64,000 nucleotides of DNA from positions 1 to 64,000 of the forward strand of contig DATLTN010000065.1 in NCBI GenBank assembly GCA_035533595.1, read 5' to 3'. Shown in pieces: positions 10,496-13,092 of this stretch. The DNA comes from Acidimicrobiales bacterium (GTDB lineage: Bacteria > Actinomycetota > Acidimicrobiia > Acidimicrobiales > Bog-793). Position numbers and translations under genes: made by a program. Within the stretch, counting starts at the first letter, position 1. Each line of letters begins with the position of its first letter. The notes under the pieces were generated by a model. The model searched no databases. It was not told where the DNA came from and saw only the letters and a list, made by a program, of their open reading frames with translations.

Positions 10496-10664
10496 AGCGG
10501 CCTTGACCCGCACTTCTCGCGCGCTGACGCGCGCGCCCGCGGGCGCTCTCGGTCACGCTGTGACGCCTCCTCCAGCTTGGGCCGTAAGGTGTGCGCCAAT
10601 CCAAGGTGGGTTGGTGCGAAGCGCTGGGGCGACTGCCGGCGCCGATGACGCGGGAGGGGAGCAC

Positions 10665-11006
10665 GTGGCAGGGCTGTTGGAGGTAACGGTTGAGGAACGG
10701 GCGGGCGTCTACGTGATCCACGCAACCGGGGAGGTCGACATCTCGACGGCCGCGGAGCTGCGCGAGCAGCTCGACGCGGCTCCGGCCGACGCGACCCGCG
10801 TCGTCGCCGACCTTGGTGGCGTGAGCTTCCTCGACTCGACCGGCCTCGGGGTGCTCATCTCGACGCACAAGCGCCTCGAGGAAGGCGCGGCCGGCGGCCT
10901 GGAGCTCGTGATCAGTGCGCGCCCGGTGTTGAAGGTGCTCGAGGTGACGGGCCTCCTCGGCCTCTTCACCGTGCACGAGACCCTCGACGCTGCGCTCGCC
11001 GGATGA
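10665..11006 (+). CDS. STAS anti-sigma factor antagonist (RsbV-type)
   Basis: 113 residues, one STAS domain with the phosphorylation site in FLDSTGLGVLISTHKR. The GTG start follows GGGAGGGGA; longer in-frame starts add no homology. Its stop overlaps the next ATG by four bases, and that gene overlaps a sigma factor gene by one base. The three form a compact rsbV-rsbW-sigB-like operon. The 169 bp upstream holds no clear promoter, only a weak TAAGGT near 10582. Confidence 0.87.
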   Translation: MAGLLEVTVEERAGVYVIHATGEVDISTAAELREQLDAAPADATRVVADLGGVSFLDSTGLGVLISTHKRLEEGAAGGLELVISARPVLKVLEVTGLLGLFTVHETLDAALAG

Positions 11007-11401
11007 GCCTGGACGACGGAGGACGGTCTCAGGCCAGCTTCGATCTCCCGGCTGACCCGGAGATGTGGACGCTCGCCCGCATGGGAGTGAGCGCCATCGC
11101 CACCGGCATCGATTTCGGGATCGACGACATCGAGGACCTGCGTCTCGCGGTCAGTGAGCTGTGCAGCACCTGCGCCGTGGGGGCCACCGGTGAGAGCCGC
11201 ATGGTCCTCGAATGCTCGTGGGACAAGTCGGCGATCAGCGTGCGCTGCGAGGTGAACGCGATCGGCTTCGACGAGGGCGAGGAGGACGACCTCTCCCGGC
11301 GGATCCTCGCGGCACTGACCGACGAGTACGAGGTCGGCAAGCTCACCGACGGCGCGCGAGGCGGATCCTTCCGCAAAGGTCGCGAACCGGCCGGGCACTG
11401 A
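11003..11401 (+). CDS. anti-sigma factor, HATPase fold with degenerate N-box
   Basis: 132 residues. The layout DDIEDLRLAVSELCSTC... matches the anti-sigma GHKL family, and the position between STAS and sigma genes identifies it as the RsbW equivalent. However, the N-box asparagine (E-x-x-x-N) is replaced by threonine (ELCST), and no DxGxG or GxGL loop is visible. It may therefore bind sigma factor and antagonist without acting as a kinase. The same loss occurs in the paralogue at 39879. Confidence 0.78.
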   Translation: MSLDDGGRSQASFDLPADPEMWTLARMGVSAIATGIDFGIDDIEDLRLAVSELCSTCAVGATGESRMVLECSWDKSAISVRCEVNAIGFDEGEEDDLSRRILAALTDEYEVGKLTDGARGGSFRKGREPAGH

Positions 11402-12147
11402 TGACGGGCGATCCGAAAGACGCCGAAGCATTCCGGGAGAAGTTCCAGGAGTTCGCACGGACGCGCGACCCTCAGCTGCGCGACGAGCTGATCACCGCGT
11501 ACCTCCCCCTCGTCGAGCAGCTCGCGCGGCGTTTCGCGCACCGCAACGAGCCCTTCGACGACCTCGTGCAGGCCGGCTCGATCGGCCTCATCAAGGCGGT
11601 CGAGGGCTTCGACCCCGACCTCGGCTTCGAGTTCTCCGCCTACGCAGCGACGACGATCATCGGGGAGCTGAAGCGCCACTTCCGCGACCGCGGCTGGTCG
11701 GTGCGCGCGCCGCGCCGGGTGCAGGAGCTGTACCTCAGCCTCGGGCCGATCGTGGAGGAACTCTCCCAGCGCTTCGGTCGCTCGCCCACCGTCCGCGAGC
11801 TCGCCTCGGAGGCCAACGTGAGCGAGGAGGCGGTCCTCGAGGCGCTGGAGGCGGCACACGCCTATCGCTCCGCCTCCCTCGACGCCCCCGCTCCCGAAGG
11901 GGACTCGCTCGGCAGCCGCCTCGGTGCGCTCGACGAGGACTTCGCCACGGTCGAGAACCGCACGACGCTGCTCCCCCAGCTCGCCGCGCTGGCGCCGCGA
12001 GACCGGTTGATCATCGAGCTCCGTTTCGTCGAGGGCCTCACCCAGTCCGAGATCGCCACCCGCCTCGGCCTCTCCCAGATGCAGATCTCCCGGCTCCTCA
12101 GCCGGAGCCTCGCCGTGCTGCACGAGGCCTTCAGCGATTCGGACTGA
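11401..12147 (+). CDS. RNA polymerase sigma factor, SigB/SigF family
   Basis: 248 residues with regions 2 (FDDLVQAGSIGLIKAVEGFDPDLGFEFSAYA), 3 (GRSPTVRELASEANVSEEAV) and 4 (LTQSEIATRLGLSQMQISRLLSRSL). Length and order fit the SigB/F/G general-stress or sporulation-type group. The ATG shares its first base with the stop of the anti-sigma gene, so translation is coupled. Activity is expected to be released when the STAS protein engages the anti-sigma factor. Candidate target promoters lie at 2360-2384, 8172-8195, 8644-8668 and 9216-9241. Confidence 0.92.
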   Translation: MTGDPKDAEAFREKFQEFARTRDPQLRDELITAYLPLVEQLARRFAHRNEPFDDLVQAGSIGLIKAVEGFDPDLGFEFSAYAATTIIGELKRHFRDRGWSVRAPRRVQELYLSLGPIVEELSQRFGRSPTVRELASEANVSEEAVLEALEAAHAYRSASLDAPAPEGDSLGSRLGALDEDFATVENRTTLLPQLAALAPRDRLIIELRFVEGLTQSEIATRLGLSQMQISRLLSRSLAVLHEAFSDSD

Positions 12148-12187
12148 AGCAACGGCCCTGACGCTGCCCACCGCCTCCCCCAGCCGC

Positions 12188-12193
12188 TACGGT
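12188..12193 (+). promoter_or_regulatory. -10 element TACGGT before a leader peptide
   Basis: TACGGT lies six bases before the GTG at 12200, the same spacing as other leaderless starts in the window. It would make the short ORF at 12200-12244 the first translated unit of the desaturase mRNA. Confidence 0.4.
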
Positions 12194-12199
12194 CGTGGG

Positions 12200-12244
12200 G
12201 TGCGCCACGACCAGCAACGACGCCCCCTCACCACGAGCGCGTGA
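12200..12244 (+). CDS. possible 14-codon leader peptide, coupled to desaturase
   Basis: The frame encodes MRHDQQRRPLTTSA followed by TGA. Its stop overlaps the desaturase GTG in a GTGA tetranucleotide, and it starts six bases after a TACGGT -10 candidate. The desaturase start has no Shine-Dalgarno sequence, so re-initiation from this peptide is a reasonable way for it to be translated. The run of Gln, Arg and Pro codons could also slow ribosomes. Only position and coupling support it. Confidence 0.4.
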   Translation: MRHDQQRRPLTTSA

Positions 12245-13092
12245 AAATCCTCGCCCTCGCGGGCCTCACCGTCCTCGCCGGCCTCATCGGCGCCGGCTTC
12301 GCGGGCGTCACGATCACCGTCTTTCTCCACCGCGGGGTGACCCACCGGGCGCACCGCATGTCGCGGCCGGTCTACGAGATCGGGCGGCTGATGACCTACC
12401 TCACGGTCTTCATGCGGCACTGGGAGTGGCGGCGCATCCACCGCAAGCACCACCTCTACACCGACGTCTGGCTCGACGAGGTGCGCCACGACCCGCACTC
12501 GCCGGTGATCATCAGCGAGCGCGAGGGGATCGACGGTTACAAGCGCGTCTCTTGGCACATGGCCGCCATCTTCCACGCCGAGGCGCAGTGCCCGGACATC
12601 CGCGATGACACCTACGACCTCGCCGACGACCGCCCCTTCGATGCCCTCGACCGCGCCGTCTACGGCACGCCGGTCGTCGGCGCCGTGGTCACCGGCGTCC
12701 TCTACGCCCTCGCCTTCGCGCTCTTCGCCCCGCCGATCCTCGGCGTCGGCCGCAGCCTCGCCTGGGAGCTCGCCGCGGTGGCCTTCGGCGCCCTCTGCGT
12801 CGGGGTGCACATCGCCGTGGTGCTCCGCTTCGGCGGGTCGATCAACTCCGACTGCCATCGCGCCAAGTCCTTCGTCGAGGGTGGCGCGGGCTACGCGATC
12901 AACGTCCGGGCGCTCTCGTTCCTCATCTTCGGTGAGGGCGAGCACTACACCCACCACCTGAACCCGCACTTCGCGCAGATCAGCAAGCGCTTCGACCTCG
13001 GCTGGCAGGTGATCCGCGTGCTGCGCACGGCGCGCCTCACCAAGGTCGTCGCCGAGCGCCCCCGCGAGCTCGTCGGCGCGAGCGCCCCCTGA
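12241..13092 (+). CDS. acyl-CoA / fatty acid desaturase
   Basis: 283 residues, membrane di-iron desaturase family 1. The three histidine boxes are present: HRGVTH (~30), HRKHH (~73) and GEHYTHH (~237). Hydrophobic segments lie at the N-terminus and around 145-200. The enzyme introduces a double bond into acyl chains using O2 and an electron donor, affecting membrane fluidity. The GTG start overlaps a 14-codon upstream frame by four bases. No desaturase reductase is adjacent. Confidence 0.88.
   Translation: MKILALAGLTVLAGLIGAGFAGVTITVFLHRGVTHRAHRMSRPVYEIGRLMTYLTVFMRHWEWRRIHRKHHLYTDVWLDEVRHDPHSPVIISEREGIDGYKRVSWHMAAIFHAEAQCPDIRDDTYDLADDRPFDALDRAVYGTPVVGAVVTGVLYALAFALFAPPILGVGRSLAWELAAVAFGALCVGVHIAVVLRFGGSINSDCHRAKSFVEGGAGYAINVRALSFLIFGEGEHYTHHLNPHFAQISKRFDLGWQVIRVLRTARLTKVVAERPRELVGASAP

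Follow-up and report, generated by a model that had tools for sequence, protein, structure and literature searches.

Background

In mycobacteria, an ATG or GTG (RTG) at the 5' end of an mRNA is reported to be both necessary and sufficient for leaderless translation; small ORFs with such a start number in the hundreds (Shell 2015, PMC4633059). The same study describes small ORFs coupled through an RTGA overlap as enriched, with 23 of 220 compared to 32 of 1000 random; conservation among orthologues is reported for some examples, and sometimes the layout alone is conserved. A review (PMC12548453), citing Shell, gives the delivery of ribosomes through a short, coupled ORF as one proposed mode of initiation. 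Acidimicrobiia are listed by anti-Shine-Dalgarno type in another source (PMC10783764). A search of mainly open-access papers for leaderless and coupled small ORFs returned no earlier description for the order Acidimicrobiales.

We analyzed a window of 64,000 nucleotides (contig DATLTN010000065.1, positions 1 to 64,000) from an Acidimicrobiales genome, designated G000, in which a short GTG frame precedes a gene for a membrane fatty acid desaturase. This frame resembles the coupled leaderless small ORFs described in mycobacteria in its putative 5' GTG, its length within 5-50 codons, a TGA that overlaps an RTG, and a peptide that is not conserved (PMC4633059). It differs from them in that it belongs to an Acidimicrobiaceae-type genome, is known from sequence alone, and has a layout that is not kept in six orthologues. 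With termination-reinitiation at 4-base overlaps, as described by Huber et al. (2019, PMC6728339), it shares the -4 spacing and a presumed hand-over of ribosomes. However, the upstream frame here has 14 codons and a product that is only putative, and a downstream Shine-Dalgarno sequence is typical in that study, whereas the desaturase start is without one. The mycobacterial attenuator ORFs that respond to cysteine (Canestrari et al. 2020, cited in PMC9094748) are likewise leaderless short ORFs 5' of a gene, but no codon run, attenuator structure or conservation was found here. The desaturase leader is probably one of fifteen cases that extend the mycobacterial phenomenon, already known, to another order.

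Arrangement of the desaturase start

The desaturase gene (12241-13092, plus strand) encodes 283 amino acids. Its product matches PF00487 (E 1.2e-11; 45.3 bits, cut-off 29.7) and contains the histidine motifs HRGVTH, HRKHH and HYTHH, and this profile score above cut-off together with the histidine boxes places it among the membrane fatty acid desaturases. Against the NCBIfam DesA family it scored 82.6 bits, under the cut-off of 400. The start at 12241 appears correct as far as homology tells: two orthologues (L032 and L033) have an ATG at the residue matching desaturase residue 1, and in four (L034, L035, L036 and L058) the start falls two residues further on.

The original prediction had placed here a -10 candidate, six bases, and a 14-codon GTG frame whose TGA overlaps the desaturase GTG, and this layout proved exact to the base. 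The -10-like hexamer TACGGT (12188-12193, plus strand) is the only TANNNT within 200 bases 5' of the desaturase start. It is followed by the six-base spacer CGTGGG (12194-12199, plus strand), which would put the start of transcription at about 12200. A probable leaderless small ORF then occupies 12200-12244 on the plus strand. It opens with GTG at 12200, encodes the peptide VRHDQQRRPLTTSA (residue 1 read as M) and closes with TGA at 12242-12244, and its 14 codons fall inside the 5-50 codon range of coupled leaderless small ORFs. The leader stop and the desaturase start (GTG, 12241-12243) overlap with -4 spacing in a GTGA junction at 12241-12244 (plus strand), which has the RTGA form of that class; a second codon starting with A turns any RTG start into RTGA. 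The desaturase had also been said to lack a ribosome site, and indeed no GGAG, GAGG, AGGA or AAGG was present 5-18 bases 5' of its start.

Leaderless starts in the source genome

Gene starts were taken from our own simple codon-usage caller and are therefore approximate. Within 419 kb, a TANNNT lay 6-8 bases 5' of 43 of the 701 in-frame candidate starts, compared to 4 of the 497 out-of-frame ATG/GTG/TTG controls. Spacings of 6, 7 and 8 contributed 15, 14 and 14 of the former and 2, 1 and 1 of the latter. When 1.06 Mb of the 2.79 Mb genome was examined for a larger test (72% GC there), the leaderless peak comprised 143 gene-start matches against 16 expected. G000 uses leaderless starts heavily, with a spacing peak at 6-8 bases.

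The density of TANNNT in 419 kb of G000 was 1.81 per kb between called genes versus 0.08-0.14 per kb inside them. The PWM score of TACGGT was low within the leaderless set, with 32 of 41 training sites scoring at least as high, and 35 of 66 intragenic TANNNT also equalled or exceeded it. Because the PWM separates poorly, the case for a promoter at 12188 is made from the location and spacing of the hexamer and not from its score. A scan for sigma-70 promoters with two hexamers found none.

Orthologues of the desaturase

A search of the order at 1e-40 matched the desaturase in 7 of 397 genomes, its own included. The six orthologues compared here (L032-L036 and L058) show 60-68% identity. Five of these loci, in named records, are from metagenome-assembled Acidimicrobiaceae and Actinomycetes genomes, from which the window most likely derives from an uncultured bacterium of Acidimicrobiaceae type. 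The 35 family genomes searched included no other from the genus of the window.

A coupled leader at leaderless spacing was kept in none of the six orthologues; among the seven loci, only the window has it. In L035, the desaturase's own start is leaderless. L032 has a short leader with GGGGG and a TACCGT that starts 37 bases 5' of the ATG, with no RTG at the right place; it has CCGCTAC(C)GTCG in common with the window site. L032 and L033 contain only frames of 3-5 codons ending in ATGA, and L034 and L036 carry Shine-Dalgarno-like motifs. No TANNNT was found in the 200 bases upstream in L033, L034, L036 or L058. Since the leader is present in the window alone among the seven loci, its peptide is not under visible selection. 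Conservation of the frame or overlap in relatives, by which the original prediction proposed to be judged, goes against it at the desaturase.

At L033 3945-3982, just 5' of the desaturase orthologue, two copies of a 19-base unit are arranged head to tail.

Chance and the class of coupled frames

The arrangement could have arisen by chance, as a real promoter with a 41-base untranslated leader, an accidental GTG frame thrown up by GC-rich sequence, and a direct desaturase start without a Shine-Dalgarno sequence. We examined 5000 dinucleotide shuffles of 12148-12240. A frame of 5-30 codons ending in GTGA appeared in 33% of them, in keeping with such an accident; a TANNNT appeared in 7.6%, and in 0.16% such a frame was preceded by a TANNNT at a spacing of 6-8 bases. 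Such frames were seen at 19 of the 66 gene starts with A next in the first 419 kb, and because the shuffle mean was 20.7, frame and overlap alone are no signal. They are ordinary on their own; the added promoter spacing is unusual. An accidental frame is also in line with its conservation in 0 of 6 orthologues, and with the 131 of 266 genes examined that carry no leaderless hexamer and no Shine-Dalgarno-like motif. Most newly found M. tuberculosis ORFs are, moreover, described as non-functional in one account (PMC9094748).

A first class test, covering 419 kb, pointed to chance as well: short frames numbered 8 against 8.7 expected, with no excess, and at spacing 6-8 only the desaturase leader ended at a gene start. 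It was replaced by a larger test with changed definitions, in which the limit was 50 rather than 45 codons and the minimum 5 codons. Genes had to be at least 100 amino acids long with a score >20 and a start no more than 30 bases from the called one, and hexamers of leaderless genes were excluded. A loose version gave 9 coupled frames in 1.06 Mb of G000 versus 1.83 expected; we considered two of these nine (window 8780 and L055) dubious, and stricter rules removed both. L081 has an alternative upstream start with a Shine-Dalgarno sequence. Under the stricter version, with frames of 5-50 codons, 1.06 Mb of G000 yielded 7 cases versus 1.17 expected from other spacings, the 7 including the desaturase case that prompted the test (6 without it). 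Coupled leaderless small ORFs were thus over-represented in G000.

Parts of four other genomes, picked before sequence testing, were treated in the same way; two belong to the same order (G036 and G040) and two to the same family (G003 and G012). Coupled cases numbered 4 in G036 (0.5 expected), 1 in G003 (0.42) and 3 in G012 (0.5), and none occurred in the examined part of G040 (0.33). Together these four genomes gave 8 cases versus 1.75 expected, a result independent of the desaturase case, and the parts of all five genomes gave 15 versus 2.92. Dinucleotide shuffling placed G000 at 6 versus a mean of 1.2 (maximum 5 in 200) and the other four genomes at 7 versus a mean of 1.26 (maximum 4 in 200), or 13 versus 2.4 when the five were summed. 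At spacings 6-8, 15 of the 54 short frames were coupled, compared to 35 of the 448 with spacings of 0-4 or 10-40 (Fisher 6e-5). Uncoupled short frames showed no clear excess, with 17 versus about 18.5 in the 1.06 Mb and 39 versus about 34 in the five genomes. A Shine-Dalgarno-like motif was present at 4 of the 15 coupled genes versus 205 of 394 others with a non-leaderless promoter hexamer (one-sided p 0.047). Not all control hexamers, which were similar in composition, were flat (AT...T, 10 versus 4.4; T...AT, 7 versus 4.5; TT...A, 2 versus 3.9), so base context or promoters in a different register may account for a modest part of the coupled excess.

By these counts, chance would account for about one such site in six, and the rate in the class makes it quite likely that the desaturase leader is genuinely a coupled leaderless small ORF. 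The excess of roughly five- to six-fold at this exact spacing and overlap argues against an accidental frame, which we consider a doubtful explanation of the locus. The original claim of a leader translationally coupled to the desaturase is partly supported, by the layout and by the class-level excess; conservation at the desaturase orthologues speaks against it.

From their first residues, some of the coupled genes can be tentatively named: G000 and G012 each have a putative rmlA-like nucleotidyltransferase gene, G000 also has a putative galT-like gene, and G036 a putative pyrG-like gene. The coupled leaderless frame of the presumed pyrG-like gene has 27 codons (L112 2831-2914, plus strand). 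The architecture that is not kept at the desaturase is present at rmlA in two genomes, where the frame has 18 codons in G000 and 8 codons in G012 and the peptides are unlike each other. The rmlA-like gene itself was found in 34 of the 35 family genomes. These rmlA-like mini-frames, at L087 10901-10957 on the minus strand and at L163 16813-16839 on the plus strand, belong to two genera.

Neighboring genes and other readings of the leader

A gene for a SigB/SigF/SigG-family sigma factor (11401-12147, plus strand; TIGR02980, 250 bits, above cut-off) lies upstream of the desaturase. Directly 5' of the desaturase, STAS, HATPase_c_2-like and SigB/F/G-family sigma factor genes stand in a row at 10503-12147, with stop/start overlaps at 11003-11006 (ATGA) and 11399-11403 (TGATG); the HATPase_c_2 protein is a weak match (23 bits, cut-off 27.4). 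The desaturase might be read mainly from this sigma-factor operon, with the element at 12188 inactive. Only 93 bases separate the sigma-factor stop from the desaturase start, with no terminator-like site, and would allow such read-through. Against an inactive element, the density of TANNNT between called genes is at least about 13-fold that within them, and TACGGT stands at the exact leaderless spacing. Nor is the neighborhood kept, since the sigma factor, STAS and HATPase had no tblastn match at 1e-3 in the six orthologue loci (3.8-8.8 kb each). We regard transcription mainly from the operon as improbable.

It is very unlikely that GTG 12200 is instead the desaturase's own leaderless start, in a frame broken by a base indel in the assembly or the strain. 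The two frames are one phase apart, and among distant desaturase loci from relatives a leaderless-spaced GTG or ATG was the desaturase start in 22 of 25, as it is in L035. However, a start at 12200 would lengthen the protein by about 14 residues ahead of its first membrane segment, and all six orthologues, the leaderless start of L035 included, begin at residue 1 or two residues later.

The leader had further been suggested to act as an attenuator or as a temperature- or amino-acid-responsive device, and here the analysis disagreed. The attenuator was rejected, as the terminator scan, the fold and Rfam were all without support. No terminator-like site, and so no terminator/antiterminator pair, was found in 12000-12500, and RNA folding of 12200-12300 was ordinary (z -0.48). 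No Rfam family reached its gathering score in 11900-12500, where the sole sub-threshold match was to GRIK4_3p_UTR on the other strand (E 0.65). The peptide VRHDQQRRPLTTSA showed no codon run over two that would mark a sensed amino acid. An attenuator or stalling peptide would suit the leader by position and length, and mycobacteria have leaderless leaders that respond to cysteine (cited in PMC9094748), but with these results and with none of six orthologues conserved, such a regulatory leader is scarcely credible.

Proposed route of ribosome delivery

Overall, we favor a coupled leaderless leader that delivers ribosomes to the desaturase start as the likely reading of this locus. From the observed layout, leaderless habit and class excess, we infer where the transcript starts, that the frame is translated and how it is coupled, as follows. 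TACGGT would start a transcript at or beside G12200, giving an mRNA that begins with GUG. Ribosomes would initiate at this 5' GUG by the leaderless route and read the 14 codons, the identity of which would matter little. Termination at UGA 12242-12244 would then be followed by re-initiation on the overlapping desaturase GUG at 12241, without a Shine-Dalgarno sequence. The small frame would accordingly serve as a ribosome-delivery element and not as a sensor.

Whether coupled leaderless mini-frames are a general way of starting genes without a Shine-Dalgarno sequence in Acidimicrobiia, and not only in mycobacteria, is in our view an evenly balanced question. In such a scheme, a promoter and a throw-away 5'-terminal frame would replace the ribosome site, being kept at rmlA despite drift in peptide and length and gained or lost elsewhere, as at the desaturase. 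The present counts provide control-tested sequence evidence that coupled leaderless ORFs, found in mycobacteria by ribosome profiling, occur in another actinobacterial order, and the coupled set provides testable genes. For short 'leader peptides' in GC-rich genomes, the first reading should be ribosome delivery rather than sensing.

A direct repeat links the leader to the desaturase gene. Copy 1 lies at the leader start (12199-12216, plus strand) and copy 2 within the desaturase (12480-12497, plus strand), where its codons read VRHDP. The copies agree at 17 of 18 bases, compared to a best of 15 in 300 shuffles, and in upstream-to-gene similarity the desaturase ranked first among 220 genes. 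Both copies share a reading phase, with VRHDQ in the leader and VRHDP in the second histidine region of the desaturase. A small local duplication, or chance, may be enough to account for this repeat.
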